Assembly: GCF_018138715.1 (NCBI RefSeq)
Contig: NZ_JAGSHX010000001.1
Location: forward strand, 1 to 64,000
DNA: 64,000 bases
Reading direction: 5' to 3'
From: Streptomyces asiaticus
Lineage (GTDB): Bacteria > Actinomycetota > Actinomycetes > Streptomycetales > Streptomycetaceae
The translations under genes were made by a program, and so were the position numbers. Of the stretch, positions 47,263 through 62,432 are shown in pieces. A model generated the notes under the pieces. That model saw nothing but the letters and a program-made list of their open reading frames with translations. It had not been told where the DNA came from and searched no databases. How positions within the stretch are numbered: the stretch's first letter is position 1; each line of letters begins with the position of its first letter.

Positions 47263-47457
47263 ATGTGCCTCCATCAACCCCAATGTCCTCCCGCCGACGC
47301 ACCGGATCACGATTCGGCGCGCTCGGTGGCCTCCCACCCCGAGCAGGGATGGAGCCTGCTCTGCAACGGCGTGGTGATCTTCGCGGACACGGGTGAGATC
47401 CTTCCCGACGGGCGTGCCATCCCCGCCCCCCGGACCAGCCCCGACCCGTCAGCATGA
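47263..47457 (+). CDS. DUF5999 small protein
   Basis: A 64-aa protein, MCLHQPQCPPADAPDHDSAR, SVASHPEQGWSLLCNGVVIF, ADTGEILPDGRAIPAP. Cys/His-rich MCxHQPxCP followed by HPEQGWSLLCNGVVxFxDTGELLPDG is characteristic of this Streptomyces family of unknown function, often next to RsbW-like ATP-binding genes. Here its stop overlaps the ATG of such a gene (ATGA). The Cys/His pattern might bind a metal (inference). Confidence 0.85.
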   Translation: MCLHQPQCPPADAPDHDSARSVASHPEQGWSLLCNGVVIFADTGEILPDGRAIPAPRTSPDPSA

Positions 47458-47957
47458 ACGCCGCCACCCTCACCCCCGCGCACGGCTCCCCGATGAGCAC
47501 CGAGCGCCGCCCTGACACGCGGCCCCCGGCCACCAGCGGCGGGACGTCCTGGCTGCTCCCCTCCGAGCCGTCCTCGGTGCCGACGGCCCGGCGGCTGGCG
47601 CTCGCCCAGCTGTCGGCGTGGACGCTGCACGACTTCGCCGACGACGCGGCACTGCTCGTCAGCGAGCTGGTCACCAATGCTTTGCGGCACGCGGGCGGAC
47701 CCATCCGCCTGACGCTCTCGCTGTGCTCCGTCGACCGCGCCTTCCGCTGCGAGGTGGCGGACGAGGACCCCGGGCAGCCCCGGGTGCGCCGGGCGTGCGG
47801 CGATGACGAGAGCGGGCGCGGACTCCACCTGCTGGATCTGCTCTCCCGCTGCTGGGGATCCACCTGCACGGCGGCCGGCAAGGTCGTCTGGTTCGAGCTC
47901 CACCCGCCTGCCGTCGTCCTGGAGGCCGCCCTGGCGGCGGCCCGAACGACCCCGTGA
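47454..47957 (+). CDS. RsbW/SpoIIAB-like HATPase (anti-sigma factor type)
   Basis: A 167-aa ATP-binding protein of the GHKL class. SVPTARRLALAQLSAWTLHD, DAALLVSELVTNALRHAGGP (N box), CEVADEDPGQPRVR (G1-like) and DESGRGLHLLDLLSRCWG (G2) are clear. Streptomyces carries dozens of such kinases, which sequester sigma factors or phosphorylate anti-anti-sigma partners; the partner here is unknown. Start ATG at 47454 overlaps the DUF5999 stop, so the two are co-translated. A strong hairpin terminator follows at 48024. Confidence 0.9.
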   Translation: MNAATLTPAHGSPMSTERRPDTRPPATSGGTSWLLPSEPSSVPTARRLALAQLSAWTLHDFADDAALLVSELVTNALRHAGGPIRLTLSLCSVDRAFRCEVADEDPGQPRVRRACGDDESGRGLHLLDLLSRCWGSTCTAAGKVVWFELHPPAVVLEAALAAARTTP

Positions 47958-48077: not shown

Positions 48078-48195
48078 CTGCTTGACGATTGATCGAGATT
48101 GATCGCCGTCATTGCGCTCGTGTAGCCTGCTGATCGCGGCAGCAGCACACTTTTCCGATAATTCTTCGTATTTTGTGGCTCGAGGAGGCTGCGTG

Positions 48196-51093
48196 GTGGA
48201 CCGGAAAACGGATTCCGGTTTACCCGGCGCGCTGGTCGGGCGCACCGCCGAACTCGCCGCGTTGACCGCCCACGCGGAGGCCGCCCACAGCGCCCGCTCC
48301 GGTCTGGTGGTCCTGTCCGGTCCGGCCGGGATCGGCAAGACGAGCCTGCTGCGCGCCTTCCTCGACAGCGACGCCTGCCGGAAGATGACCGTGCTGCACG
48401 GCGCCTGCGGTGAAGTGGTGGCCGGCGCCGGATACGGCGGGGTGCGCGCACTCTTCGGAAGCCTCGGGCTCTCGGCCGAGGACGCCCAGGACTCCCCGCT
48501 GCTGCGCGGCAGCGCCCGCCGCGCCCTCCCCGCGCTCAGCCCCCGCCCCGGCGAGGAGGGGCCGCCCACGGCCGCCAGCGTCTACCCGGTGCTGCACGGC
48601 CTGTACTGGCTCGCCGCCAACCTGATGACCCAGGGCCCCCTCGTGCTCGTCCTGGACGATGTGCACTGGTGCGACGAGCGCTCCCTGCGCTGGATCGACT
48701 TCCTGCTGCGCCGGGCCGACCAGCTGCCGCTGCTGGTCGTGCTCGCCCAGCGCAGCGAGGTGGAACCGGTCGCCCCCGCGGCCCTTGCGGACATCCTCGC
48801 CCAGCCGCGTTCCGCGGTGATCCGCCTCGACCCGCTGACCGACGCCGAGGTGGCCGAAATGGCCCACCAGGTCTTCGCCGGCCCCGTCGCCCCCTCCTTC
48901 GCCGAGCGCGCCGCCGCCGTCTGCGGCGGCAACCCGCTGACCGTCACCCGGCTGTTGCGCGAGCTGCGGGCCAAGGGCGTGGCGCCCGACGAGAGCGGCA
49001 TCCGCGAGATCGCCGAGGTCGGGAGCTACGTGGTCGCCCTGTCCGTGCGTGCCCTCTTCGACGCCCGGCCCGACTGGGTCCGGGACGTGGCCACCGCCAT
49101 CGCGGTGCTCGGCGAGGAGGACGCGGAGCACATCGGCGCGCTGGCCGGAGTGCCCGCCGCCCGCGTCTCCGAGGCCGTGGAGCAGCTGCGCGAGGCCGAG
49201 GTGATGGCGCCGGACCGGGCGGACCTGGCCCATGACGTGCTGCGCTCCGCGGTGCTGGAGGCCGCGGGGGAGGAGCGGCTGGCCGAACTGCGCGCCAGGG
49301 CGGCCCTGCTGCTGAGCGACGCCGGACGGCCCGCCGAGGAGGTCGCCAACCAGGTGCTGCTGGTGCCCGGCACCCCCCAGCCGTGGATGGGCTGGGTGCT
49401 CCGGGAGGCCGCCGCCCAGGCCGAGCACCGCGGCGCCCCGGAGGCCGCCGCCCGCTATCTCTACCGGGTCCTGGAGGCGGAGCCGGACAGCCTGTCGGCC
49501 CATGTCCCGCTCGCCAAGGCGCTCGCGGAGATCAACCCCGCCGAGGCCGTCCGCCTGCTCAAGCGGGCGCTCACGCTGGCCACCGACATCCGCACCAAGG
49601 CGCCCATCGCCGTGCAGTTCGGCCTCACCTGCCTCACCGTCCAGCAGTCACCGGCCGCCGTACGGGTGCTCAGCGAGGTGCTCGACGAGCTCGAGGCCGA
49701 GCTGGGGCCCGACCCCGATCCGCGCGACCGCGAACTGCGCACCCTCGTCCAATCGACGCTGCTGATCAGCGGATCCGACGAGAAGGCCACGATCCACACG
49801 GTCCGGGAGCGCTTCGCGCGGATTCCCGAACCCGCCGGGGACACCCCCGCCCAGCGCCAGATGCTCGCCATAATGACGGTCCTGTCCGCGATGGAGGGCC
49901 GCTCGGTGCAGCGGGCGGTGGGGCAGGCCCGCCGCGCGCTGAGCTCCGCGGACCGGCTCGACAACTGGTCACTGCTCTTCTCCGCGTTCACCCTCGGCCT
50001 GGCCGACGAGATCGAGGAGTCGATGGAGGCCCTGGAGCACGCGCTGCGCCACGGCCAGGACAACGCCGCGGTGTGGTCGTATGTGATCACCCTGTCCTAC
50101 CGCGCCCAACTGCTGCACGGCGTCGGCGCGATCCCGGACGCCCTCGCCGACGCCCAGACCGCCGTCGAGATCATCGGCGAGGAGCGCTGGAGCGCCAATG
50201 TGACCATGCCGCAGACCGCGCTGGCCACGATCCTGATCGACCGGGGCGAACCGGAGCGGGCCGAGGAGCTGCTGGCCGCCGTCACCCGGCCGAACCTGGA
50301 CGGGTTCGTCATGGAGTACCACTCGTATCTCATGGCCCGCGCCCGGGCCCGCTGGGCGCTCGGCGACAGCGCCACCGCGCTGCGGCTGCTGCTCGACTGC
50401 GGCGCCTCGCTGGAGGAGTCCGGCTTCGCCAACCCGGTGTTCCTGCCCTGGTGGGCCGAGGCGGCCTGCCTGCTCGCGGCGGAGAAGCGGGCGGACGAGG
50501 CGCGGGACCTGGTCGAGCACGGCGCCGAGCTGGCCCGCCGCTGGAGCACCCCGCGCGCGCTCGGACTCGCCGCCCTCGCCCGCGGGGTGACCACCGCCGG
50601 CGAGGAGGGCATCGCCCAGCTCACCGAGGCGGTCGAGCACTTCTCCGGGTCGCCCGCCCGCTCCGAGTACGCCCGGGCCGAGTTTCTGCTCGGCGGGGCG
50701 CTGCTGGACGCGGGGCGGCCGCGCGAGGCCCGGGAGCGGCTGCGCTCGGCCGTCGACCTCGCGCAGGGCTGCGGCGCGCTCGCGCTCGCCAGGGACGCCC
50801 GCAGCCGGCTGGTGGCCGCGGGCGGCCGGATGCGCGAGATCACCGCCTCACCGGTCGATCTGCTCACCGGCACCGAGCGCAAGGTGGCCCAGATGGCCTC
50901 GCGCGGGGCGGGCAACCGCGAGATCGCCGAGTCGCTGTTCGTCACCGTACGGACCGTTGAGACCCATCTCACCAGCGTCTACCGGAAGCTGAGTGTCGGT
51001 CAGCGCGGGGAGCTGGCCTCGGTGCTGAACACGCCGCGACTTCCCGATCCACAGGCCCCCGCCTGGGTCTTCGCCTCACGCGGCCGGCGCTGA
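48196..51093 (+). CDS. LAL-type LuxR regulator, NysRI/AmphRI-like position and size, intact Walker A
   Basis: About 965 aa. The N-terminal AAA-like ATPase has Walker A GPAGIGKTSLL (residues 42-49, Lys48 present) and Walker B LVLVLDDVHWCDERSLRW, then AAVCGGNPLTVTRLL (sensor region). A long TPR-like middle follows, and a C-terminal LuxR HTH: LTGTERKVAQMASRGAGNRE, IAESLFVTVRTVETHLTSVY. It is first of three consecutive LAL genes followed by a PAS-LuxR gene. Length and order match the NysRI-like activators of polyene clusters. GTG at 48196 follows GAGGAGG; GTG at 48193 is equally possible. Target genes are not in the window. Confidence 0.9.
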   Translation: MDRKTDSGLPGALVGRTAELAALTAHAEAAHSARSGLVVLSGPAGIGKTSLLRAFLDSDACRKMTVLHGACGEVVAGAGYGGVRALFGSLGLSAEDAQDSPLLRGSARRALPALSPRPGEEGPPTAASVYPVLHGLYWLAANLMTQGPLVLVLDDVHWCDERSLRWIDFLLRRADQLPLLVVLAQRSEVEPVAPAALADILAQPRSAVIRLDPLTDAEVAEMAHQVFAGPVAPSFAERAAAVCGGNPLTVTRLLRELRAKGVAPDESGIREIAEVGSYVVALSVRALFDARPDWVRDVATAIAVLGEEDAEHIGALAGVPAARVSEAVEQLREAEVMAPDRADLAHDVLRSAVLEAAGEERLAELRARAALLLSDAGRPAEEVANQVLLVPGTPQPWMGWVLREAAAQAEHRGAPEAAARYLYRVLEAEPDSLSAHVPLAKALAEINPAEAVRLLKRALTLATDIRTKAPIAVQFGLTCLTVQQSPAAVRVLSEVLDELEAELGPDPDPRDRELRTLVQSTLLISGSDEKATIHTVRERFARIPEPAGDTPAQRQMLAIMTVLSAMEGRSVQRAVGQARRALSSADRLDNWSLLFSAFTLGLADEIEESMEALEHALRHGQDNAAVWSYVITLSYRAQLLHGVGAIPDALADAQTAVEIIGEERWSANVTMPQTALATILIDRGEPERAEELLAAVTRPNLDGFVMEYHSYLMARARARWALGDSATALRLLLDCGASLEESGFANPVFLPWWAEAACLLAAEKRADEARDLVEHGAELARRWSTPRALGLAALARGVTTAGEEGIAQLTEAVEHFSGSPARSEYARAEFLLGGALLDAGRPREARERLRSAVDLAQGCGALALARDARSRLVAAGGRMREITASPVDLLTGTERKVAQMASRGAGNREIAESLFVTVRTVETHLTSVYRKLSVGQRGELASVLNTPRLPDPQAPAWVFASRGRR

Positions 51094-51139
51094 CGCGCGC
51101 ACGGCGGTTCGATGACAGGGGCACGACCCATCCCAGGCA

Positions 51140-51145
51140 TATAGT
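51140..51145 (+). promoter_or_regulatory. -10 element just before the second LAL gene
   Basis: TATAGT ends 6 nt before the ATG at 51152, and no ribosome-binding sequence is present. This suggests a leaderless transcript and a promoter independent of the first LAL gene. Confidence 0.5.
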
Positions 51146-51151
51146 CACACC

Positions 51152-53908
51152 ATGCAGCTCAACGGGCTCCCGTTCCCCGGCCGTGAACGAGAGCAGGCCA
51201 TGCTTGCCCAGACCGTCGCCGACCTGGGCCGGGGCCGTTCCTCGGTGGTGACACTGATCGGCCGGCCCGGTTACGGACAGAGCCGCCTGCTGAACCTCGC
51301 CGCCAGGCTGGCCGAGGACCAGGGCTTCCGGGTGCTGCGCGCCAAGGCGACCCCCGGCGAGCGCGATGTGCGCTACGGCGTGGTGGGACAGCTGCTGGCC
51401 CCGATGGACGGACTCACCGACGGCTCGATGAAGGCCCTGACCGGGCAGGGGCCCGAGAGCCGCTTACCGGGCCTGACCGAGTTGCTGCGGACCGCCAGAG
51501 AGCGGCCCACACTGCTGGCCGTCGACGATGTGGAATGGCTGGACCCGGCCTCGGTGCGCTGGTTCGGGGCGCTCATCCGGCGGCTGCCCGACGCCCTGAT
51601 CGTCCTCCTGCTGAGCGGCACCGGCCGGCTCCGCCCCGGCGCGTGCCCCCTGTCCACCGCGCCGCAGCAGGTGATCACCCTCGAATGCGAACTGGCCCCG
51701 CTCGCCCCGCGCGACGTGGCCGCCACGGTCGCGCTGATCTGCGGCCGCCCCGGCGACCACGCCTTCATCTCCGCGGCCCTGGAGGCGAGCGCGGGCAACC
51801 CCGAGGTGCTGTCCGAGGCACTGCGCCGCTTCACCAAACACGGCTACCCGCCGGTCGCCGGGCGCGTGCCGGAACTGACCACCATCACCGAGGCCGTGGG
51901 CGGTGAACACGCCCTCCGCGTGCTCGGGGGGCTGTCCGACACGGCCGTCGCGCTCGTCCGCGCGCTCGCCGTCTGCGGCGATCTGCTGGATCTGTCCCTG
52001 CTGTTCGCGCTCGCCGGCCCCCGCGCCGCGAGCGAGCCCGGCCTGCCCGAAGTGCTCCAGGAGAGCGGGCTCGCCATCGCCTCCGGAACCGGGCTCCGGC
52101 TGAGCCGGCCCGAGGCGCGCAGCTGGATCCTCGCCGAGATGCCCGGTGACGAGCGGGCCGAACTCCACGCCCGCGCCGCCGAGCTGGCCTACCGGGCGGC
52201 CGTGGCCGACGAGGACATCGCCCGGCTGCTGCTCGCCGCCCGCCCGGTCGACGAGCCCTGGGTGATCCCCGTGCTGCGCCGCACCTGCGCCGCCGCGCTG
52301 CGCGCGGGCCGGACCGCCCAGGCCATCGCCTGTCTGTCGCGGGCGCTGGAGGAGCCGCTGGACCCGGTGCCGCGCGCGCAACTGGGCATCGAACTCGCCG
52401 CCATCGAAGTGCTCGCCGCCCCCGAGGCCGCCGGCCGCCGGCTGGCGGAGATCATCCGCACCGGCGACGGCGGGCCCGGCCGGACCCGGGCGCGCGCCGC
52501 CGACCTCGGGCTCTCCCGCGGCGACGACAAGGCGCTGCGCCGCGCGATCGTCGACGTGCTGCCCTCGATCGACGGCGAGGAACGGGGGGCGCTGGCCGGG
52601 CTGTTCTGGCTCACCGAGTCCGACGGGCAGGACGACACCGATCTGATCCCGGACGGGATACCGCCGCTGCCCGACGACCCCACCTGCCCGGCGCAGGCCG
52701 CGGCGCGCGCCTGGCGGCTGGCGCTGCGCGGGGCGGACCTGCCCACCGCCCGGGCGCTGGCCCACCGGGTCTTCACCCTGGACGGCGGCGCGGGCGCCCT
52801 GATCCTGCCCCGGCTCGCCGCCGCCCGGACCCTGCTGCTGACCGACGACCTGGACGAGGCCGAGGTCCGGCTGGACATCCTCCACACCGACCTGCGCAGG
52901 CGGCACGCCCGCGCGGCCGCCGCCCAGGCCCTGGCCGTCCGCGGCGAGCTGAACCTGCGGCGCGGCCGGCTCGACATGGCCGAACGGGACGTGGCCGCCG
53001 CCGAGCGGTCGCTGCCCCGCTCCCTCTGGCACCGCCACACCATCCCGTATCTGCTGGCCGTCCGGATCCTCATCGCCCTGGAGAACGGCGATCTCGGCCA
53101 GGCCGGTGTGCTCGCGGCCGCCTCCGCCCCCGCCGAGTCGCGCGAGGGCGCCTCCTGGGGCTACCTGCTCTTCGCCAGGGCGCTGGTCGCCGTCAAGGAC
53201 GACCGGCCGCCCGAGGCGGTGGAGCTGTTCCGGGCCACCGGCAGATGGCAGTTGGGCCGCGGGCGGATCAACCCCGCCCTGATGCCGTGGCGTTCGATGG
53301 CCGCCCGGGTCCACGACGCCCTCGGCGACCACGAGGAGGCACGGCGGCTCGCCGACGAGGAGCTCGCGCTGGCCCGGTTGTGGGGTGCCCCCAACACGCT
53401 CGGCTGGGCCCAGCTGGGCGCCGGACGGGTGGCCCGGGAGGGGCGGGTCGAGCGGCTCCGCGAGGCGGTGGCCACCCTGCGCTCCACCCCGGCCCGGCTC
53501 GCCTACGCGGGGGCCCTGATGGAGCTTGCCACGGCCGAACTCGACACCGGGAACCCGCGCGCCGCGGCCCCCCTGGTGGCCGAGCTGTTCACCTTCGTCA
53601 TCGCCCACCGGCCCTCCAGCAAGCTGGTCGCGAAGGTGCGCGAACTGTCCGAGCGGACGGGGCCCTCCGCCGTCCGCGGACGCGTCCCGCATCCGGCGTG
53701 GGCGACGCTGACCGAGCCGGAGCAGCGCACCGCCTCCCTCGTCGGACTCGGCCATGGCAACCGGGAGATAGCCGAGACCCTCTCCGTTAGCAGACGCACC
53801 GTGGAGCTGAGGCTCAGCGGTGCGTACCGAAAGCTGGGGATCGGCGGTCGCGCGGAGCTGATCGAGTTGCTGCGGGCGGCGCAAGGAGGGGGAATCGATG
53901 TTGCTTGA
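51152..53908 (+). CDS. LAL-type LuxR regulator with degenerate Walker A (Lys to Gln)
   Basis: A 918-aa member of the triplet. The P-loop reads GRPGYGQSRLL (residues 37-44): Gln43 (codon CAG at 51278) replaces the essential Lys. The Walker B region is LLAVDDVEWLDPASVRW, with both Asp retained. The TPR-rich middle is followed by the HTH LTEPEQRTASLVGLGHGNRE, IAETLSVSRRTVELRLSGAY. Nucleotide binding is therefore probably weak or lost while DNA binding is kept. It ends 11 nt inside the next gene. In polyene clusters the equivalent genes (nysRII/amphRII position) act in one cascade; whether their P-loops are also degenerate I cannot verify here. Confidence 0.9.
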   Translation: MQLNGLPFPGREREQAMLAQTVADLGRGRSSVVTLIGRPGYGQSRLLNLAARLAEDQGFRVLRAKATPGERDVRYGVVGQLLAPMDGLTDGSMKALTGQGPESRLPGLTELLRTARERPTLLAVDDVEWLDPASVRWFGALIRRLPDALIVLLLSGTGRLRPGACPLSTAPQQVITLECELAPLAPRDVAATVALICGRPGDHAFISAALEASAGNPEVLSEALRRFTKHGYPPVAGRVPELTTITEAVGGEHALRVLGGLSDTAVALVRALAVCGDLLDLSLLFALAGPRAASEPGLPEVLQESGLAIASGTGLRLSRPEARSWILAEMPGDERAELHARAAELAYRAAVADEDIARLLLAARPVDEPWVIPVLRRTCAAALRAGRTAQAIACLSRALEEPLDPVPRAQLGIELAAIEVLAAPEAAGRRLAEIIRTGDGGPGRTRARAADLGLSRGDDKALRRAIVDVLPSIDGEERGALAGLFWLTESDGQDDTDLIPDGIPPLPDDPTCPAQAAARAWRLALRGADLPTARALAHRVFTLDGGAGALILPRLAAARTLLLTDDLDEAEVRLDILHTDLRRRHARAAAAQALAVRGELNLRRGRLDMAERDVAAAERSLPRSLWHRHTIPYLLAVRILIALENGDLGQAGVLAAASAPAESREGASWGYLLFARALVAVKDDRPPEAVELFRATGRWQLGRGRINPALMPWRSMAARVHDALGDHEEARRLADEELALARLWGAPNTLGWAQLGAGRVAREGRVERLREAVATLRSTPARLAYAGALMELATAELDTGNPRAAAPLVAELFTFVIAHRPSSKLVAKVRELSERTGPSAVRGRVPHPAWATLTEPEQRTASLVGLGHGNREIAETLSVSRRTVELRLSGAYRKLGIGGRAELIELLRAAQGGGIDVA

Positions 53909-56708
53909 ACGGGAGGCCGAGCTGGCGCAGGTCGCGGAGGCCCTGCGGGCCGCGGCGGCGGGGGACTCGTCACTGGTGTTGCTCACCGGCCCCCTGGGCA
54001 CCGGCCGGACCGCGCTGCTGCACCAGCTGCCGATGCTCGCCGAGGGCGAGAAGATCAGGGTCCTGCGCGCCAACGCCGCGCCGATGGAGCAGGACTTCGA
54101 CCTCGGCGTGGTCCGCCAGCTCTTCGACAGTCTGCTCACCGGCGTCCCGGAAGACCTCCGCGGGCAGCGCATCGAGGCAGGGGTCGACCTCTGCCGGACG
54201 GTCTTCTCCGACGACGCCCCGCCGCTCGACGAGAACGGGGCCGTCACCATCCCCGAGGAGGCGCTGTACGGCCTGCGCTCGGTGCTGGCCACCGCCGGTG
54301 CCGAGCGCCCGCTGCTCATCCTCGTGGACGATCTTCAGTGGGTCGACACCCCCTCGCTGCGCTGGCTCGCCTTTCTCGTCAAGCGGCTGCACGGGCTGCG
54401 CGCCGTGCTCGTCTGCTCCCTGCGGGACGGCTACCGGCGCCCCGGGGACCCACTGCTGGGGGAGATCGTCGAGGCGGCGCGGCGGGTGCTGCGCCCCGCG
54501 CCGCTGTCGCTCGGCGCCACCAAGGAAGTGATCCTCGAGCAGTTCGGCGTGCCGGGGGACGAGGAGTTCGCCCGCGCCTGCCACGAGAGCTCCGCGGGCA
54601 ACCCGCTGTTCCTGAAGTCGGTGCTGGCGGACCTGGCCATGCGCGGCCACCGGCCCACCGCCGAGCATGCCGAGACGGCCCGCTCCCTGCGCCCCGCCCA
54701 GCTCCGCGAGCGGCTGGCCAGCTCCCTGCGCGCCCAGCCCCGGCCCCCGCGCGACCTGGCCGCCGCCATCGCGGTCCTCGGCGACCAGGCCGAGCCGGAT
54801 CTGCTGGGCCGGCTGGCCGGGCTGGACCCGATCGGCTTCCTGGCCGCGCTGCGCGACCTCCACCAGCTGGGGCTGGTCGCCGCCGAGCAGGAGCCGCGCT
54901 TTCTCCACCGGGTGGTGCAGGACGCGGTCGAGTCCTCGATGACGGTGGCCGAACGGGAGCGGCTGCACGACGCCGCGGCGGCGCTGATGTACCACAACGG
55001 ACGCCCCGCCGAACTCGTCGCCGCCCAGCTCTTGGCCGTCACCAGCTCCGACCACCCCTGGGCGGTGGAGGTGTTGCGGGCCGCGGCGGACACCGCGCTG
55101 CGCCGCGGCGCGCCCCGCACCGCCGCCCGCTATCTGCGCCGCGCCCTCCTGGACGGCTCGCTGACCGGGGAGGGCCGGGCCCGGCTGCTGATCGATCTGG
55201 CCACCGCGGAGCGCGGCTTCGACCCGGCCGCCTGTGAACGCCATATCTCCCAGGCGATCCCCCTGCTGACCACGGCCAGGCTCCGGGCCGCCGCGGCCCT
55301 GCGGATCTCGCCCACCATCGTGGGCCTGGGGCCCCCGTCGGTCATCGATCTGCTGCACCAGGTCGCCGAGGATCTGGGGCCCGCCGCCTCGCTGGAGGGC
55401 ACGGCGCGCGATGTGGCGCTGCGGCTCGAGGCGCGGCTGCGGCACGCCGGACACGAGGACCCGGCGGAGCTGGCCGCGGCGGTCGAGCGGCTGTCCGTGC
55501 TGGGGGCGGAGCCGCCGCTGCTCACCTCCGCCGAGCGCGAGCTGACGGCGGTGCTGCTCAACGCGGCGGTGCTCACCGCCCGATGGCCCGCGGCCGAGGT
55601 CTCCCGGCTGGCCAATCGCATCCTGGAGCGCGAACCGGCCACCTCCGACCAGGTCCACACCCCGCTGCCGCTGGTGGTGATCGGGCTGGTGGCGGCCGAT
55701 TCGGTACGGGGGATCAGCTCCTGGCTGGCGATGGAGCAGCAGACGCGGCGGCAGGGCGGCACGGTCGTGGACGCGCTCGTCAACGTTCAGCAGGCCATGG
55801 TGCTCAGCGCCCGCGGCCGCGTCGCCCAGGCACGTGAGTACGCCGAGCGCGCCGTGCGGCTGGCCGAGGTGCACTGGCAGGAGGCCGGGATCGTCTCCAC
55901 CCTCGCCCTCACCCGCGTCGCCCTGGACCTCCAGGACTCCGCGCTGATCGAGCGGATTCTGGACGGCCCCGGGCGGCGCCGCTCCTCGAGCCTGGCCCTG
56001 ACCGCGGCGCTGCAATTCGTCAAGGCGGCACAGGACGCCGAGCAGGGTCGCTGGTCCAGCGCCCTGGAAACCCTCCTGGCCTGCGGTCGGCAGCTGGAGG
56101 CTTCGGGCTGGCGCAATCCCGTGCTCTTCTCCTGGCGGCCCTGGGCGGCCGACCTCCACCGGCGGGTCGGCGACCCCCACGCGGCCGGGGCGCTGGCCGA
56201 GGAGGAACTGCTGCGGGCGACCGAATGGGGCGCCCCCGTGGCGCTCGGCCGCGCGCTGCGGGTGAAGGCCCGGTTGATCGACGGTGACCAGGGGATGCGG
56301 CTGCTGCGCGAATCGGTCGATGTGCTGCGTGCCTCGGCCAATGAACTGGAACTCGCCCGCACGCTGCTGCTGCTGGGCAAGCGGCTGAGGCCGGGATGCG
56401 GCGAGGCGGCGGCGGTACTCCGGGAGGCCGCGGCGCTGGCCTCGGCGTGCGGGGTGCCACGGCTGGTCGAGCGGATCCGCGCGGCGGACGGCAGCGGTGC
56501 GGCGGCCGCCCCGCCGGAGGCGACCCTCACCCGTACCGAACGCACCGTGACCTCTCTCGTCGGACGCGGTCTGACCAACCAGGAGGTCGCGGCCGAGTTG
56601 GGGGTGAGCTCCCGCGCCATCGAGAAGCATCTGACGAGTTCCTATCGCAAGCTGGGCGTCTCCGGCCGGCGCGAGCTCATCGAGCTGCTGCCTCGCATGC
56701 ATTCGTGA
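53898..56708 (+). CDS. LAL-type LuxR regulator with degenerate Walker A (Lys to Arg)
   Basis: A 936-aa third member. The P-loop is GPLGTGRTALL (residues 31-38) with Arg37 (codon CGG at 54006) instead of Lys. Walker B LLILVDDLQWVDTPSLRW is canonical, followed by CHESSAGNPLFLKSVLADL. The C-terminal HTH is LTRTERTVTSLVGRGLTNQE, VAAELGVSSRAIEKHLTSSY. It overlaps the second LAL gene by 11 nt behind AAGGAGGGGG, so the two are co-translated. A hairpin terminator at 56783 closes the unit before the PAS-LuxR gene. Corresponds in position and size to NysRIII/AmphRIII. Confidence 0.9.
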   Translation: MLLEREAELAQVAEALRAAAAGDSSLVLLTGPLGTGRTALLHQLPMLAEGEKIRVLRANAAPMEQDFDLGVVRQLFDSLLTGVPEDLRGQRIEAGVDLCRTVFSDDAPPLDENGAVTIPEEALYGLRSVLATAGAERPLLILVDDLQWVDTPSLRWLAFLVKRLHGLRAVLVCSLRDGYRRPGDPLLGEIVEAARRVLRPAPLSLGATKEVILEQFGVPGDEEFARACHESSAGNPLFLKSVLADLAMRGHRPTAEHAETARSLRPAQLRERLASSLRAQPRPPRDLAAAIAVLGDQAEPDLLGRLAGLDPIGFLAALRDLHQLGLVAAEQEPRFLHRVVQDAVESSMTVAERERLHDAAAALMYHNGRPAELVAAQLLAVTSSDHPWAVEVLRAAADTALRRGAPRTAARYLRRALLDGSLTGEGRARLLIDLATAERGFDPAACERHISQAIPLLTTARLRAAAALRISPTIVGLGPPSVIDLLHQVAEDLGPAASLEGTARDVALRLEARLRHAGHEDPAELAAAVERLSVLGAEPPLLTSAERELTAVLLNAAVLTARWPAAEVSRLANRILEREPATSDQVHTPLPLVVIGLVAADSVRGISSWLAMEQQTRRQGGTVVDALVNVQQAMVLSARGRVAQAREYAERAVRLAEVHWQEAGIVSTLALTRVALDLQDSALIERILDGPGRRRSSSLALTAALQFVKAAQDAEQGRWSSALETLLACGRQLEASGWRNPVLFSWRPWAADLHRRVGDPHAAGALAEEELLRATEWGAPVALGRALRVKARLIDGDQGMRLLRESVDVLRASANELELARTLLLLGKRLRPGCGEAAAVLREAAALASACGVPRLVERIRAADGSGAAAAPPEATLTRTERTVTSLVGRGLTNQEVAAELGVSSRAIEKHLTSSYRKLGVSGRRELIELLPRMHS

Positions 56709-56782
56709 ACGGAGCGTTAACGGCGATAATTGGACGCTGTTTGACGAGGATTCGTGAACCGACCGTACCGGCCCACCGAAGG

Positions 56783-56818
56783 GGTGGGGTGCGGACCGAA
56801 CCTTCGGGGCACCCCACC
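56783..56818 (+). terminator. hairpin after the LAL triplet
   Basis: GGTGGGGTGC pairs with GCACCCCACC, with an inner CCGAA-CC-TTCGG stem. It lies 75 nt after the stop of the third LAL gene and before the PAS-LuxR promoter. Confidence 0.65.
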
Positions 56819-56849
56819 ACGGGATTGGGTGGCCCCACCCCTGTTGACG

Positions 56850-56879
56850 TTGACTTCAGTACCCGCAGATCCCTAGTCT
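56850..56879 (+). promoter_or_regulatory. putative promoter of the PAS-LuxR gene
   Basis: TTGACT (56850-56855), an 18-nt spacer and TAGTCT (56874-56879); a second TTGACG precedes directly. ATCCCTAG at 56869-56876 equals the right half of the published PAS-LuxR (PimM-type) binding consensus, a hint of autoregulation. Confidence 0.45.
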
Positions 56880-56895
56880 CAATTCTGAAATGAAC

Positions 56896-56929
56896 ATTCG
56901 GAATTGAATATTGGTATTCAATTCCGAAT
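56896..56929. repeat. perfect 15-bp inverted repeat in an AT-rich island
   Basis: ATTCGGAATTGAATA and TATTCAATTCCGAAT are exact complements around TTGG. The surrounding 70 nt are strikingly AT-rich for this genome. It lies between the -10 and the ribosome site (GGAAGGGA, 56941) of the PAS-LuxR gene, so it is an operator or a leader-RNA hairpin. A smaller inverted repeat AAGGGA/TCCCTT (56943-56960) follows. Confidence 0.85.
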
Positions 56930-56958
56930 ACTGAGAATTAGGAAGGGATGGCAGTCCC

Positions 56959-57645
56959 TTGGCATTGCCTTTACTATCGGATTCGGCTCGGCCAACCCCC
57001 CACGAGCTTGGACACGAGCAGACCGAGTACACGGATCTATTGCGCCAGTTCGATCAGCCAGGGGCGTGTGTCGTCTGTCTCGACCCGTCGCTCATCGTCC
57101 AGCAGGCGAACCGGGAATTCTTCCGGCAGTTCGACGACGCCTCCTCGGACGTATGCGGCCGTGACTTCTGTGACCTTGTCCACCCCAGCGTCCGGCAGGC
57201 GCTGAAGCGGCAGTTCACCCGGCTCCTCGACGGCTCCCGTCACCGGTTCACCACCCATGTGGTGGCCATCGGGGCCGAGGGGGCCGCCTTCACCAGCGGG
57301 CTCACCGCCGTGGCGGTGCGCGAGGGCACCGCCCATGTGGCCTCGATCCTCGTGGTGATGCGTCCCACGGCGGGTGGCGAGGAGGTGGAGATGGTCACCA
57401 ACCGCAAGAAGCTCCTCACCGAGACCGAGGCGCGCATCCTGGAGGGCATCGCCGCGGGGCTCTCCACCATCCCGCTGGCCTCCCGGCTCTACCTCAGCCG
57501 GCAGGGTGTCGAGTACCACGTGACTCGGCTGCTGCGGAAGCTGCGGGTGCCCAACCGTGCGGCCCTCGTCTCCCGCGCCTACTCGATCGGCGTACTCAAC
57601 GTCGGCTGCTGGCCGCCAAAGGTCGTCGACGACTTCATCAAATGA
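56959..57645 (+). CDS. PAS-LuxR regulator, NysRIV/AmphRIV/PimM-like
   Basis: A 228-aa regulator. The N-terminal PAS domain covers about residues 25-130 (LLRQFDQPGACVVCLDPSLI, VQQANREFFRQFDDAS, GRDFCDLVHPSVRQAL). The C-terminal HTH reads LTETEARILEGIAAGLSTIP, LASRLYLSRQGVEYHVTRLL, then RKLRVPNRAALVSRAYSIGV and a Trp-Pro-Pro tail. SRQGVEYHVTRLLRKL-VPNR-ALVSRAY is the pattern of the small PAS-LuxR activators of polyene macrolide clusters. The start is TTG at 56959, 10 nt after GGAAGGGA; another TTG lies at 56965. It follows the LAL triplet as nysRIV follows nysRI-RIII. Confidence 0.85.
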   Translation: MALPLLSDSARPTPHELGHEQTEYTDLLRQFDQPGACVVCLDPSLIVQQANREFFRQFDDASSDVCGRDFCDLVHPSVRQALKRQFTRLLDGSRHRFTTHVVAIGAEGAAFTSGLTAVAVREGTAHVASILVVMRPTAGGEEVEMVTNRKKLLTETEARILEGIAAGLSTIPLASRLYLSRQGVEYHVTRLLRKLRVPNRAALVSRAYSIGVLNVGCWPPKVVDDFIK

Positions 57646-57723: not shown

Positions 57724-59409
57724 TCAGGACGGGGCCGGGCCCCGGGACAGCCGCAGCAGACGGAAGGCGGTGAGCGCCACATGGAGCTGGGTGCGCTGCT
57801 CACCCGACTCCAGATCGCAGCCCAGCACCCGCTCCACCGAGTGCAGCCGCTGGTAGAACGCCTGCCGGGACAGATTCGCGCGCTTGGCGGCCACCGTCTT
57901 GTTGCCCGCCGCGTCCAGGAACGTGTGCAGCACCGGCAGCAGATCGGTGCCGTGCCGCTCGTCGTAGTCCACCAGCCGGCCCAACTGCCGCTCCACGAAC
58001 TCCTGGAGCCGCACATCGCCGCGCAGCGCGTACAGCAACTGCCGCAGCCCGATGTCGGACAGCTCGTGGAACGCCTTGTCCGGCGTCCCCGGAACGGCGG
58101 CGTCCGCGACCCGCGCCGCCTGCTGGAACGACCGGGCGGTCTGCGACAGGTCCGACACCTCGGAGCCGACGCTGATCACGGCGTCCGGCCGGGACTCCCG
58201 CACCGACCGGCTCAGCCGCTCCACCAGCGGCCGCCACGGCGTGGCGGCCGGCAGGGCCAGCAGCACCCCTATGTGGTCACCGGGCACCGCGCCGACCAGT
58301 ACGGCGGCCCCGGCCGCCCCCAGCTCGTCCGTCAGCCGGTCCTCCAGCTCGGTCGTCTCCCCGGCGCCGGGGCCGGGGCTGACCAGCGTCACCATCAGCC
58401 GGCGGCCCGCGACCGGCACGCCCAGCGCCTCGGCCCTGGCCCGGGCCTCGCCCTTGGACCGGCAGCGCTGCTCCACCAGGTCCAGCAGCAGGGTGCGCTG
58501 GGCCCGCCGCTCCCAGCGGGTGTGATGGGTGAGCCGGGCGATGGTCAGGGCCGTGGCGGTGCGCTCCAGGACCATCGCGTCCTCGGGGCCGACCGCCGGG
58601 TCCCGGGCCCCGTCCGGGAGCATCAGCAGCCGCCCCCATCGCTCGCCCCGGTACTCCACCGCGGTCACCAGCCAGTCCTCCGGGCCGCTCAGCCCGGTCC
58701 GGTCGGGCGAGGGCGTGGCGCGCGAGCGCCGCTCCCAGCCGGACAGCGCCCCCTCCACCCCGCGCCCCGGCGACCCGCAGATGACGGCCTGGTGCACCAG
58801 GTTCTCCAGCACCACGGGGTGCCCGCTCATCTCGGCCGCCATGTCCACCACCTCCTCGGGCCCGGCGCCCCGCAGGGTCAGCGCGGTGAAGGTGTCATGG
58901 ACGTCCTGGGCCCGGCGCAGGCTCTCCACCTGGCTGCCGACGATCAGGGAGTGGAGCACCTGGGTGACCTCCACGAAGTTCACCGTCCGCGAGAGCAGGA
59001 CGAGCGGGAAGTCCCGCGCCAGACAGGCCCGTACCAGCTCCGAGGGCGGCCGGTGGTAGCGCCGCACCAGCTCGATGACCAGACCGGCGGCGCCGACGTC
59101 CGCGAGCTCGTCGACATACCGGCGGACCAGCGCCGGGTCCTCGGGCAGCGGCATCCCGGTGGTCAGCACCAGCTCCCCGCCCTTGAGGAAGGACGCCGGG
59201 TCGAGCAGCTCGGTGATGTGGACCCAGCGGACCGGCCGGGCCAGCTGCCCGTGGCCGGAGACCACCTCCGGCGCCCCGGCGGCCAGCACCGGAAGCCGCA
59301 GCACCTCGGCGAGGCTGAGCGGCGGACGCCCCGGGATCCGCGGGGGCTCCGAGGGGCGGGCCGGCGGCCGTCCGGCAGCGTCGTACGCGGTGCCGCCGAA
59401 GCCGTTCAT
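57724..59409 (-). CDS. PucR-family transcriptional regulator
   Basis: About 561 aa. An N-terminal PucR sensing domain (about 30-170: LSLAEVLRLPVLAAGAPEVV, RPVRWVHITELLDPASFLKG, GELVLTTGMPLPEDPALVRR) is followed by a GGDEF-like region (about 330-440) and the C-terminal HTH_30: DLLPVLHTFLDAAGNKTVAA, KRANLSRQAFYQRLHSVERV. Such regulators control purine, amino acid or amine catabolism. It is divergent from the GABA aminotransferase gene with a 202-bp shared control region, so it probably regulates that operon. ATG at 59409 is taken; GTG at 59418 is possible; no strong ribosome site is seen for either. Confidence 0.92.
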   Translation of the reverse strand: MNGFGGTAYDAAGRPPARPSEPPRIPGRPPLSLAEVLRLPVLAAGAPEVVSGHGQLARPVRWVHITELLDPASFLKGGELVLTTGMPLPEDPALVRRYVDELADVGAAGLVIELVRRYHRPPSELVRACLARDFPLVLLSRTVNFVEVTQVLHSLIVGSQVESLRRAQDVHDTFTALTLRGAGPEEVVDMAAEMSGHPVVLENLVHQAVICGSPGRGVEGALSGWERRSRATPSPDRTGLSGPEDWLVTAVEYRGERWGRLLMLPDGARDPAVGPEDAMVLERTATALTIARLTHHTRWERRAQRTLLLDLVEQRCRSKGEARARAEALGVPVAGRRLMVTLVSPGPGAGETTELEDRLTDELGAAGAAVLVGAVPGDHIGVLLALPAATPWRPLVERLSRSVRESRPDAVISVGSEVSDLSQTARSFQQAARVADAAVPGTPDKAFHELSDIGLRQLLYALRGDVRLQEFVERQLGRLVDYDERHGTDLLPVLHTFLDAAGNKTVAAKRANLSRQAFYQRLHSVERVLGCDLESGEQRTQLHVALTAFRLLRLSRGPAPS

Positions 59410-59535: not shown

Positions 59536-59611
59536 ATTGTCCTGACCGGGTCCGCCCCCTCACCCTCGAAGTGTCCGAGCGCATCGCCGACCCGTGGGTG
59601 TGGGAGAGAAC

Positions 59612-60871
59612 ATGACCAATCTGTCGCCGCAGCTCCGTCAAGCCACTCCGGTGGTCGCCGTCCGCGGAGAGGGCGCCTACATCGACGGCGAGGACGGGCG
59701 GCGATACCTCGACTTCACCGCGGGCATCGGCGTCACCAGCACCGGGCACTGCCATCCGCGGGTCGTCGCCGCCGCCCAGGAGCAGGTGGGCACCCTCATC
59801 CACGGCCAGTACACGACCGTGATGCACCCGCCGCTGCGGCGGCTGGTCGAGAAGCTGGGCGAGGTGCTTCCCACGGGCCTCGACAGTCTGTTCTTCAGCA
59901 ACTCCGGCAGCGAGGCCGTGGAGTCGGCCCTGCGCCTGGCCCGCCAGGCCACCGGCCGGCCCAACGTCCTGGTCTGCCACGGCGGATTCCACGGCCGCAC
60001 CGTGGCCGCGGCCTCCATGACCACCTCCGGCACCCGCTTCCGCTCCGGCTTCTCGCCCCTGATGAGCGGTGTCGTGGTGACCCCGTTCCCCACGGCCTAC
60101 CGGTACGGCTGGGACGAGGAGACCGCGACCCGGTTCGCCCTGCGGGAGCTGGACTACGTCCTACAGACCATCTCCCCGCCCGACGACACCGCCGCGATCA
60201 TCGTCGAACCGGTGCTCGGCGAGGGCGGCTATGTGCCCGCCACCGAGGGCTTCCTCCAGGGCCTGCGGGAGCGGGCCGACCGCCATGGCTTCCTGCTGAT
60301 CCTGGACGAGGTGCAGACCGGGGTGGGCCGCACCGGACGGTTCTGGGGCCATGACCACTTCGGCATCCGCCCCGACATCCTGGTCACCGCCAAGGGGCTG
60401 GCCAGCGGCTTCCCGCTGTCCGGCATCGCCGCCTCCGAGGAGCTGATGAGCAAGGCATGGCCCGGCTCGCAGGGCGGCACCTACGGCGCCAACGCCGTGG
60501 CCTGCGCCGCGGCCGCCGCCACCCTCGACGTGGTCCGCGAGGAGAACCTCGTGGCCAACGCCGAGGCCATGGGGGCACGGCTGCGCAGCGGTCTGGAGGA
60601 CGTGGCCGCCAAGACCCCCGCCATCGGCGATGTGCGCGGCCTCGGCCTCATGCTGGCCAGCGAGTTCGTCACCGCTGACGGCGAGCCGGACCCGGCGACC
60701 GCGGCCCGGGTGCAGCGCGCCGCCGTGGACGAAGGGCTGTTGCTGCTCCTGTGCGGCGCCTGGAACCATGTGGTCCGGATGATCCCCGCCCTCGTCGTCG
60801 ACGAAGCGGCGATCGACGAGGGTCTGCGCGCCTGGTCCGCCGCCGTCAGCGCCGGAACAGCGGACTCCTGA
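59612..60871 (+). CDS. gabT: 4-aminobutyrate aminotransferase (class III PLP)
   Basis: A 419-aa class III aminotransferase. Motifs: FTAGIGVTSTGHCHPRVVAA, FFSNSGSEAVESALRLARQA, HGGFHGRTVAAASMTTSG, the PLP Asp in LLILDEVQTGVGRTGRFWGH and the Schiff-base Lys in DILVTAKGLASGFPLSGIAA. It transfers the amino group of GABA (or a related omega-amino acid) to 2-oxoglutarate. The neighbour succinate-semialdehyde dehydrogenase takes the product, supporting GABA over ornithine or beta-alanine, though broad specificity is usual. ATG at 59612 follows GGGAGAG. It is divergent from the PucR gene. Confidence 0.88.
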   Translation: MTNLSPQLRQATPVVAVRGEGAYIDGEDGRRYLDFTAGIGVTSTGHCHPRVVAAAQEQVGTLIHGQYTTVMHPPLRRLVEKLGEVLPTGLDSLFFSNSGSEAVESALRLARQATGRPNVLVCHGGFHGRTVAAASMTTSGTRFRSGFSPLMSGVVVTPFPTAYRYGWDEETATRFALRELDYVLQTISPPDDTAAIIVEPVLGEGGYVPATEGFLQGLRERADRHGFLLILDEVQTGVGRTGRFWGHDHFGIRPDILVTAKGLASGFPLSGIAASEELMSKAWPGSQGGTYGANAVACAAAAATLDVVREENLVANAEAMGARLRSGLEDVAAKTPAIGDVRGLGLMLASEFVTADGEPDPATAARVQRAAVDEGLLLLLCGAWNHVVRMIPALVVDEAAIDEGLRAWSAAVSAGTADS

Positions 60872-60959: not shown

Positions 60960-62432
60960 ATGTCCACCCCCTCGTACCCCTCGGCCGCCGAGGTCCTCGC
61001 CGCGGTGCCCAAGCAGCTCTACATCGCCGGGTCGTGGTCCGACGCGGCGGGCGGCCAGACCATGCCGGTCGACGACCCGGCCACCGGTGAGGTGCTGTGC
61101 GACGTCGCCGACGCCTCCCCCGCCGACGGGCAGCGCGCCCTGGCCGCGGCCGCGGAGGCCCAGGAGAAGTGGGCGGCCACCGCGCCCCGCGCGCGCAGCG
61201 AGATCCTGCGCCGCGCCTATGAGCTGATCATGGAGCGCGCCGACGCGCTCGCCGCGCTGATGACGGCCGAGATGGGCAAGCCGCTGGCCGAGGCGCGCGG
61301 AGAGGCGGCCTACGCCGCGGAGTTCTTCCGCTGGTTCTCCGAGGAAGCGGTGCGCATCGAGGGCGGGTTCTCCACACTGCCGGACGGCAAGAACCGGATG
61401 CTGCTGATGCGCCGCCCGGTCGGGCCGTGTCTGCTCATCACGCCGTGGAACTTCCCGCTGGCCATGGGCACCCGCAAGATCGGCCCGGCAATCGCCGCGG
61501 GCTGCACCATGGTGCTCAAGCCCGCCCCGCAGACCCCGCTGTCCAGCCTGGCGCTCGCCGGGATCCTGGCGGAGGCGGGGCTTCCGGCCGGGGTGCTCAA
61601 TGTGGTCACCACCTCCCGGGCCGGAGAGGTCGTGGAGCCGCTGCTGACCGGTGGACACATCCGCAAGCTCTCCTTCACCGGCTCCACCCAGGTCGGCCGC
61701 ACCCTGCTCGCCCAGAGCGCGCCCGCGGTGGTCCGCACCTCCATGGAACTCGGCGGCAACGCCCCCTTCATCGTCTTCGAGGACGCCGACCTCGACGTCG
61801 CGGTCGAAGGCGCCATGACCGCCAAGATGCGCAACATGGGCGAGGCGTGCACGGCGGCCAACCGGTTCTTCGTCCACTCCTCCGTGGCCGCCGAGTTCGC
61901 CGACCGGCTGGCCCGCCGCATGGGCGCGCTGGAGGTCGGCCCCGGCAGCCGCCCCGGGGTCCAGGTCGGGCCGCTCATCGACCGGGCGGGCCGTACCAAG
62001 GTCGAGGAACTGGTCGCGGACGCCGTGGCACGCGGCGCCGAGGTCCTGGTCGGCGGCAGCACCCCCGAGGGCCCCGGCTGCTTCTACCCGCCCACCGTGC
62101 TCACCGGCGTCTCCCCGGCCAGCCGGCTGATGGAGACCGAGATCTTCGGACCGGTCGCGGCCGTGCTCACCTTCGACGACGAGGACGAGGCCCTCGCCAC
62201 CGCCAACGCCACCGAATGGGGCCTGGTGGGCTATGTGTTCACCCAGGACCTCAACCGCTCGCTGCGGGTGAGCGAGCGGCTCGAGGTCGGCATGGTCGGC
62301 CTCAACACCGGACTGGTCTCCAACCCCGCGGCTCCCTTCGGCGGCGTCAAACAGTCCGGGCTCGGACGTGAGGGCGGCCGCGTCGGCATCGACGAGTTCC
62401 TGGAGTACAAGTACGTCGCGGTGCCGGTCTGA
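60960..62432 (+). CDS. gabD: succinate-semialdehyde dehydrogenase (NAD(P)+), aldehyde dehydrogenase family
   Basis: A 490-aa aldehyde dehydrogenase. The cofactor motif is LITPWNFPLAMGTRKIGPAI with Lys in MVLKPAPQTPLSSL, FTGSTQVGRTLL, general base Glu in TSMELGGNAPFIVFEDADLD, and the nucleophile Cys in NMGEACTAANRFFVHSSV. The SSADH branch is suggested by IFGPVAAVLTFDDEDEAL and by GLNTGLVSNPAAPFGGVKQS near the C-terminus. It oxidises succinate semialdehyde to succinate, linking GABA to the TCA cycle. It starts 88 nt after gabT with TAGGAG upstream and ends at a strong hairpin. Confidence 0.9.
   Translation: MSTPSYPSAAEVLAAVPKQLYIAGSWSDAAGGQTMPVDDPATGEVLCDVADASPADGQRALAAAAEAQEKWAATAPRARSEILRRAYELIMERADALAALMTAEMGKPLAEARGEAAYAAEFFRWFSEEAVRIEGGFSTLPDGKNRMLLMRRPVGPCLLITPWNFPLAMGTRKIGPAIAAGCTMVLKPAPQTPLSSLALAGILAEAGLPAGVLNVVTTSRAGEVVEPLLTGGHIRKLSFTGSTQVGRTLLAQSAPAVVRTSMELGGNAPFIVFEDADLDVAVEGAMTAKMRNMGEACTAANRFFVHSSVAAEFADRLARRMGALEVGPGSRPGVQVGPLIDRAGRTKVEELVADAVARGAEVLVGGSTPEGPGCFYPPTVLTGVSPASRLMETEIFGPVAAVLTFDDEDEALATANATEWGLVGYVFTQDLNRSLRVSERLEVGMVGLNTGLVSNPAAPFGGVKQSGLGREGGRVGIDEFLEYKYVAVPV

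Follow-up and report, generated by a model that had tools for sequence, protein, structure and literature searches.

The window, i.e., the whole stretch of DNA analyzed, covers the initial 64 kb of the 1.32-Mb contig C1 in a genome belonging to the Streptomyces violaceusniger clade. Positions 48196-57645 host three LAL genes followed by a PAS-LuxR gene, and open reading frames as well as sequence comparison place them in the gene order NysRI-RII-RIII-RIV. LAL1 (NysRI-like, 48196..51093, plus strand like the other three) starts with GTG and encodes 965 aa including the canonical Walker A lysine. In LAL2 (NysRII-like, 51152..53908, 918 aa) this lysine is replaced (GRPGYGQS), which is common to other aligned LAL2 rows, and in LAL3 (NysRIII-like, 53898..56708, 936 aa) it is exchanged for arginine, the same being found in most other aligned LAL3 rows. 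The PAS-LuxR regulator (NysRIV/PimM-like, 56959..57645) starts with TTG and counts 228 aa. According to Pfam, each LAL combines an N-terminal AAA_16 domain with a C-terminal LuxR helix-turn-helix (GerE), and the PAS-LuxR protein carries an N-terminal PAS domain (PAS_4/PAS) and a C-terminal LuxR helix-turn-helix (GerE). Reading frames and domains agree with the composition given for this locus in the original prediction.

Compared with the cassette of S. noursei (L090), identity amounts to 63% for LAL1, 45% for LAL2, 54% for LAL3, and 65% for the PAS-LuxR protein, whereas off-position LAL matches reach only about 28-34%. Each LAL is closest to the same-position LAL of other cassettes, representing a position-specific similarity to the cassettes of polyene clusters. 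The anticipated nysRI-RIV/amphRI-RIV layout was recovered position by position, with best matches keeping their order instead of pointing to unrelated LALs in no shared order (AmphRI-RIV being likened by gene order, with its sequences outside the comparison). All four cassette frames are open in the source genome, and the recognition helix of the PAS-LuxR protein (SRQGVEYHVT) is unchanged.

Neighborhood, distribution, and selection

The cassette is flanked upstream by an RsbW-like HATPase gene (47454..47957, plus strand; HATPase_c_2, 4.6e-11) and downstream by a gene for a PucR-family regulator (57724..59409, minus strand; PucR, 3.9e-35), both of them conserved neighbors, the latter outside the cascade. 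Further downstream, a class-III aminotransferase gene (59594..60871, plus strand; Pfam 7.8e-119), GABA aminotransferase-like by context, and an aldehyde dehydrogenase gene (60960..62432, plus strand; Pfam 5.2e-162) contribute to the synteny. The rsbW-like gene is found upstream in 15 of the 17 orphan-type loci (no match in L029 and L030), and the aminotransferase gene likewise in 15 of 17. Gene calls outside the listed ORFs were made by a simple codon-position GC script.

No KS domain was detected by tblastn within the 64-kb window, as had been predicted, and none in C1:60001-175395, leaving ~118 kb downstream of the cassette KS-free; on this contig, KS domains were found from C1:175396 onward. 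Within the visible flanks (48 kb upstream of LAL1, 118 kb downstream), the cassette is neither embedded in a polyene PKS cluster nor bordering one. An adjacent polyene cluster with these genes as its ordinary border was not found there, and the assignment as orphan stands. Clusters were detected by proxies (KS, NysDIII, single marker genes). At E<=1e-60, 12 of 15 orphan-cassette genomes, the source genome among them, lacked a match to the mycosamine gene product NysDIII; the source genome contains at least 151 KS matches among those listed, with 150 of 208 candidates scored.

Extension of the analysis toward related genomes located the cassette at one single locus in 17 fetched relatives. In a LAL3 tree of 47 rows, all 17 orphan rows (the source genome and 16 loci) fall on one side of a branch with 100/99 support. 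Among the 26 non-orphan cassettes with inspected flanks (omitting L040, L041, L048, L068, L082, L088, and L095, as well as L093, with a KS present and a LAL match of only 34%), 24 had a KS nearby. This compares with none of the eight orphan cassettes with extended flanks, i.e., those of the source genome, G005, G007, G008, G009, G012, G013, and G010 (upstream side plus 10 kb). The remaining orphan loci were KS-free within the fetched locus. Breaks in the LAL matches of L029 correspond to runs of N; those of L073 are fragmented with no run of N at the two junctions checked, so that a gene break is possible.

Median pairwise dN/dS values (Nei-Gojobori) for orphan versus polyene-type cassettes were 0.26/0.28 for LAL1, 0.32/0.39 for LAL2, 0.35/0.30 for LAL3, and 0.18/0.15 for the PAS-LuxR gene, the polyene-type LAL1 median retaining one pair (L059/L082, 1.07) that compares non-matching pieces. 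At the larger distance between the source genome and L033, values were higher (LAL2 0.63, LAL3 0.54, PAS 0.38). The cassette is under ordinary purifying selection and not decaying. Of the fates considered at the outset, retention after loss of the cluster fits these data, given the occurrence in all 17 fetched relatives, the single origin in the LAL3 tree, and the purifying selection; that the cassette now controls other genes is an inference.

Putative promoters and a composite element upstream of the PAS-LuxR gene

Alignment of 17 rows revealed a putative LAL1 promoter, TTGATC-N18-TAGCCT (48099..48128, plus strand), with TTGATC invariant and TAGCCT variable in a few rows. A putative PAS-LuxR promoter, TTGACT-N18-TAGTCT (56850..56879, plus strand), emerged from an 18-row alignment with TTGAC and TAGTCT invariant. 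A strict E. coli-type promoter scanner reported neither of the two. Upstream of the latter, a composite element, ACCGWACC-N8-22-ACCRCRGNNTT (56795..56826, plus strand), is proposed as a LAL-controlled operator. Of 51 cassette loci, 44 carry it ahead of the PAS gene (for the orphan ones 16 of 17, plus that of the source genome), as opposed to three of 26 other PAS-LuxR loci; some of the loci counted had served to build the pattern. Across 22 genomes, 22 of its 29 matches reside at PAS-LuxR promoters, and in the 11.9-Mb source genome the only exact copy is the one at the PAS-LuxR promoter. The element is kept in cassettes with and without PKS. Between it and the start codon, an AT-rich perfect inverted repeat (56896..56929, no strand assigned; 15-bp arms, 4-nt loop) is lineage-specific, its arms measuring 15-17 bp in the source genome, L021, L023, and L044 and being shorter or not found elsewhere.

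The composite element may be the first recognizable operator of the NysRI-RIII-type LAL class. Speaking against the proposed cascade, the LAL RimR2 of S. rimosus showed no binding to the rimR1 promoter in EMSA (PMC9942304). Because dN/dS is ordinary, the composite element is single and shared, and the recognition helix is unchanged, the internal link from the LALs to the PAS-LuxR gene looks retained with the original target gone.

Promoter boxes and composite element are conserved amid diverged intervening DNA, which speaks against a relic that outlived its cluster by chance and does nothing, as do the four open frames and the dN/dS medians equaling those of polyene-type cassettes. We regard such a remnant as unlikely, although the lack of a clear operator target and of NysDIII in the source genome, the higher dN/dS toward L033, and the fragmented LAL matches of L073 would be compatible with it.

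Candidate PimM-type operators and target clusters

The genome-wide search for the PimM consensus, proposed along with the original prediction, yielded no convincing operator at zero or one mismatch and one weaker candidate target cluster. None of the cassette genes in the source genome is preceded by a PimM-type site within three mismatches. Upstream of LAL1, a PimM-like site with two mismatches occurs in six of 33 non-orphan versus none of 17 orphan cassettes; in the orphan locus L029, a two-mismatch site lies 114 bp upstream of the PAS gene. The source genome contains three sites at <=1 mismatch and 35 at <=2 mismatches, 21 of them inside called genes (22 counting C6:3070897). The reversed pattern gave 15 sites, a weak control because hairpins also match a palindrome.

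Several sites were rejected upon inspection, including all three at <=1 mismatch (C1:261255, C6:5343870, and C6:3070897). Two of these, C1:261255 and C6:3070897, look stronger than the dyads of the candidate cluster below but overlap or lie in coding DNA. C1:261255 extends over the 3' terminus of a PKS gene, and G014 has a similar site at a terminus of this kind. C6:5343870 and its homologues are located ~45 bp beyond a putative acyl-CoA dehydrogenase-like gene and appear terminator-like. In G007 and G010, perfect dyads in tandem fall between convergent called genes. C6:551680, upstream of a DeoR-like gene and kept in G005 and G012, is hardly informative because the DNA there is conserved throughout. 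C6:3070897, considered as an operator of a clethramycin-type cluster, is a 16-mer one mismatch from the consensus and represents coding DNA of an amine-oxidase FAD motif; it is identical in six genomes and altered in G005 and G004 (six informative rows, with L193, L196, and L199 excluded).

A methoxymalonyl-type PKS cluster (C1:1032-1052 kb), located about 980 kb from the cassette, is the best candidate for a present target, suggestive only; two of its promoters contain weak PimM-like dyads. The first site shows two mismatches in the source genome and G012, one in G005, and three in G004; the second three in the source genome and two each in G012 and G005. This cluster is found in only four of 15 orphan-cassette genomes and therefore cannot explain the general retention of the cassette. 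A second PAS-LuxR paralogue (42-49%), present in 15 of 15 of these genomes, could be the actual user of the candidate sites.

Two large clusters were considered as alternative clients. Service to an unlinked clethramycin-type linear-polyene cluster (C6:3083-3226 kb) would be in line with its 27 KS among the matches listed, a number agreeing with the modules of the clethramycin/mediomycin PKS (PMC5704753), with its neighbors (AMP ligase, amine oxidase, VinK-like acyltransferase, ABC exporter), and with the amine oxidase (>=85%) in nine of 15 orphan-cassette genomes. However, the amine oxidase was not found at this threshold in the other six, the cluster has its own LAL gene (C6:3067868-3070675), and its 16-mer is the FAD-motif sequence altered in G005 and G004, making this assignment improbable. 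There is an equally small chance that the cassette forms a remote regulatory border of a marginolactone-like PKS cluster with 22 KS (C1:175-285 kb, among the matches listed) and serves it. In three genomes, both were found on one contig, and there their orientation relative to each other is always the same, the PAS gene being about 234 kb (G000), 199 kb (G012), and 206 kb (G003) from the ligase gene. Yet about 118 kb of other genes separate them, the ligase (>=97%) occurs in six of 15 genomes versus 15 of 15 for the cassette, and the single PimM-like site at <=1 mismatch in this cluster coincides in part with a PKS gene at its 3' end.

A probable stand-alone cascade in comparison with known systems

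We consider it reasonably probable that a NysRI-RIV-type cascade became separated from its polyene cluster, either by losing it or by moving away, in a single event in the ancestor shared by the S. violaceusniger clade and its closest relatives. Since then, the cascade would have been passed on at a constant locus as a still-wired, stand-alone, trans-acting switch. One or more LAL proteins would bind at 56795-56826 and turn on the PAS-LuxR gene, the product of which, with its recognition helix unchanged, would act on PimM-type dyads elsewhere. Its likely targets would be lineage-variable biosynthetic clusters, e.g., of the methoxymalonyl type, instead of one fixed pathway common to all. Altogether, this is a real, functional-looking, and probably trans-acting variant of a known cascade. 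The more specific reading, a clade-fixed stand-alone regulator of unrelated lineage-variable clusters with the LAL-to-PAS-LuxR operator kept as the sole copy in the genome, is advanced tentatively.

Pathway-specific regulators are usually viewed as belonging to their clusters. If a species group retains a complete cascade in the absence of its cluster, this would demonstrate the ability of such a module to exist on its own; it also offers a well-defined system for studying which signals the PAS and LAL domains perceive. With the composite element, a specific and testable operator prediction is available that extends to the S. noursei and S. albidoflavus cassettes. As PKS genes abound in genomes of this group, a conserved activator not linked to a cluster offers a practical starting point for activating some of their clusters. 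Within the open-licence PMC literature, no paper was found on an orphan LAL/PAS-LuxR cassette in the S. violaceusniger group.

NysRI-RIV (nystatin), AmphRI-RIV, and FscRII-IV with FscRI (candicidin) share the order of three LALs and a PAS-LuxR gene with our cassette. Our cassette, in contrast, has no adjoining KS, and the source genome contains no NysDIII match. The cassettes of S. noursei (L090) and S. albidoflavus (L094), which we take to belong to the nystatin and candicidin clusters, respectively, show the position-specific similarity and have the composite element at their PAS promoter as well. PimM and PteF possess PAS and LuxR domains as found here, and the recognition helix is identical to that of S. 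natalensis L066, presumably PimM. In contrast to PimM and PteF, which are under a SARP-LAL, the upstream regulators here are three LALs. Within 420 bp ahead of the PAS gene, neither strand contains an exact copy of the CGGCAAG heptamer known from the pimM promoter (PMC5930380). FscRI and PteF are still part of their own polyene clusters, whereas no such cluster was found here. Nevertheless, FscRI is reported to cross-regulate antimycin (PMC5143413) and PteF oligomycin (PMC9394381), both being PAS-LuxR regulators that act on clusters other than their own, as proposed here.

Cassette build and the shared locus

All four open reading frames claimed in the original prediction were present on the forward strand, encoding LAL1 (48196-51093), LAL2 (51152-53908), LAL3 (53898-56708), and a PAS-LuxR protein (56959-57645). 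In Pfam, all three LAL proteins match AAA_16 and a LuxR-type GerE HTH, whereas the fourth protein matches PAS and GerE. The proposed NysRI-RIV-like order was recovered as well: within the cassette of Streptomyces noursei A-2-1, the best match of each protein is its positional counterpart (LAL1 63%, LAL2 45%, LAL3 54%, PAS 65% identity), with off-position matches reaching only ~28-34%. The claimed absence of a PKS held for the window, with zero ketosynthase (KS) domains found there; none was found in C1:60001-175395 of the same contig, the first KS of which lies at C1:175396. According to Pfam, the 5' neighbour of the cassette is an RsbW-like ATPase gene and the 3' neighbour a minus-strand gene for a PucR-family regulator, with class-III aminotransferase and aldehyde dehydrogenase genes also on the 3' side. 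Just 5' of the cassette, the window encodes another LuxR-type regulator, containing AAA and TPR domains (44596-46926, minus strand); its position is conserved in those relatives for which the upstream flank was inspected.

Scanning genome contigs with the PAS-LuxR protein yielded 76 loci. Since those at 93-99% are found in Streptomyces antioxidans, iranensis, sabulosicollis, endocoffeicus, niphimycinicus, samsunensis, rugosispiralis, violaceusniger, sp. S465, and hygroscopicus subsp. hygroscopicus, the host genome (11.88 Mb, 6 contigs) is taken to belong to the S. violaceusniger clade. The orphan-cassette genomes, as the term is used here, comprise our own and 14 relatives (G000-G014), the outermost being S. 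sparsogenes (G010), strain NBS 14/10 (G013), and S. milbemycinicus (G014). The same cassette position was seen in 17 loci (L020-L033, L044, L053, L073). The rsbW-like gene was matched 5' of the cassette in 15 of these, L029 and L030 showing up2, the gene preceding it, instead; the aminotransferase was likewise matched in 15 (exceptions L032 and L053).

KS domains were searched within ~20 kb 5' of LAL1 and 30 kb 3' of the PAS-LuxR gene (more in our own genome; the upstream side plus 10 kb in G010). They were absent near the orphan cassettes of all eight genomes tested (own, G005, G007, G008, G009, G010, G012, G013) but present near 24 out of 26 other cassettes (Fisher p ~2e-6, ignoring relatedness and unequal flanks), the two exceptions, L055 and L074, being viewed over 14-20 kb upstream. 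A NysDIII-like GDP-mannose dehydratase (E<=1e-60), a marker blind to polyenes lacking mycosamine, had no match in 12 of the 15 orphan-cassette genomes including our own. The remaining matches are at 52% (G008) and at 83% each (G013, G014), the latter two adjoining another PAS-LuxR gene, not that of the cassette. When 47 LAL3 proteins were placed in a maximum-likelihood tree, a branch with 100/99 support separated all 17 orphan rows (our own and 16 loci, with L073 left out) from the rest; thus, the orphan state needs one change.

Integrity of the switch and its promoter element

Judged from the sequences, the switch looks intact in the orphan cassettes. Median pairwise dN/dS of orphan cassettes is similar to that of polyene-type ones (LAL1 0.26 vs 0.28, LAL2 0.32 vs 0.39, LAL3 0.35 vs 0.30, PAS 0.18 vs 0.15), based on 6 orphan pairs and on 9, 6, 9, and 9 polyene-type pairs, respectively; values are higher at greater distance (own vs L033: 0.40, 0.63, 0.54, and 0.38 in the same order). 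In the alignment, the helix SRQGVEYHVT, which we take to be the recognition helix of the PAS-LuxR protein, is identical in orphan rows and nearly all others, followed by R in orphan rows and L081 and mostly by G or C elsewhere. The Walker A lysine of orphan rows is kept in LAL1 only, LAL2 carrying Q (one row R) and LAL3 R. Polyene-type rows mostly share this pattern, with exceptions and a mostly canonical LAL1, so it gives no sign of decay. Counting against intactness, LAL matches of L073 are in pieces; those of L029 are broken by runs of N. The -35/-10-like boxes of LAL1 and the PAS-LuxR gene are kept across orphan loci, and a strict E. coli-type promoter scan reported neither.

Upstream of the PAS-LuxR gene, 23 bp before its -35 box, lies a composite element (ACCGWACC-N8-22-ACCRCRGNNTT, 56795-56826), found in 44 of 51 cassette loci, among them our own (L001) and all but one of the 17 orphan loci, and in three of 26 other PAS-LuxR loci (L039, L049, and L057, whose contig starts ~430 bp before its match). 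Some of the cassette loci had served to define the motif, so the first count is partly circular. Not circular is its absence from the rest of our own genome, where the single copy sits at the PAS-LuxR promoter. Across 22 whole genomes, 22 of 29 matches fall at PAS-LuxR promoters (21 cassettes and a second PAS-LuxR gene in G020) and seven elsewhere, compared with one match for the reversed control pattern; the G009 cassette promoter carries a one-letter variant in place of an exact match. The element is a candidate operator of the LAL step at this promoter. In place of it, the pimM promoter is reported to use CGGCAAG heptamers (PMC5930380); for S. rimosus, RimR2 is described as not binding the rimR1 promoter (PMC9942304). 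Between promoter and PAS-LuxR start, an AT-rich perfect inverted repeat with 15-bp arms (56896-56929) occurs in our own genome and three near relatives and is shorter or not found further away.

Search for present targets

The proposed genome-wide search for the PAS-LuxR consensus CTVGGGAWWTCCCBAG returned 35 sites with <=2 mismatches in our own genome; all three with <=1 failed on inspection as operators, leaving a weaker candidate. Upstream of the cassette genes no site with <=3 mismatches was found. Each of the six comparison genomes (G015-G020) has a site of 0-1 mismatch at a distance of 141-143 bp from its NysDIII match, so the search does detect operators in genomes that have a target.

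Of the sites left, the best is C1:1037637 (2 mismatches), flanked by a CMD-family gene and, divergently oriented, a PKS gene of 4598 codons. Like sequence occupies the equivalent place in G012 (2 mismatches), G005 (1), and G004 (3, still a dyad), the DNA beyond it having diverged in G005 and G004. A second dyad (3 mismatches; 2 in G012 and G005) precedes an operon of 3-hydroxyacyl-CoA dehydrogenase, acyl-CoA dehydrogenase, HAD hydrolase, and O-methyltransferase genes, presumably for methoxymalonyl-ACP synthesis as judged from the FkbG-K gene set. Among 16 neighbouring proteins, Pfam detected no LuxR- or SARP-type regulator; an IclR-family gene lies ~10 kb beyond the PKS gene. The cluster may be one target, though not the reason for cassette retention, because its marker (>=83%) occurs in only 4 of 15 orphan-cassette genomes. 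Weaker alternatives would place the target in a clethramycin-type cluster, present in 9 of the 15, or in the 22-KS cluster 118 kb 3' of the cassette, present in 6. The latter (C1:175-291 kb), perhaps a guanidino-starter (marginolactone-like) pathway, encodes a ligase with 63% similarity to its clethramycin-type counterpart; G003 and G012 also have this cluster on that side of the cassette.

Apart from the C1:1037637 cluster, an identical one-mismatch site at G011:C1:218259 (locus L275) and G003:C145:173110 possibly marks a further target. Its flanking genes in G011, named from their sequences, are ABC-transporter-like, adjoining a very large gene (2695 aa), and, divergently oriented, secreted-protein-like. 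Tandem perfect consensus dyads occur between two convergent called genes in G007 (C2:10688815-10688853) and G010 (C107:11467-11521), which are distant members of the group. A second PAS-LuxR gene (C6:331929-332501, locus L002, 48% identity) adjoins a P-type ATPase gene in our own genome, and such paralogues (42-49%) occur in all 15 orphan-cassette genomes searched. A consensus-like site lies ~400 bp 5' of the paralogue in G007; none with <=3 mismatches was found 5' of L002.

Comparison with known cascades

In the literature searched, no cluster-free cascade fixed in a species group was found. There is precedent for the proposed mode of action, since PAS-LuxR proteins are reported to act outside their own clusters, FscRI on antimycin (PMC5143413) and PteF on oligomycin (PMC9394381). 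The S. asiaticus cascade is NysRI-RIV-like in its build and differs in a single defining feature: NysRI-RIV resides in a polyene cluster, whereas this cassette does not.
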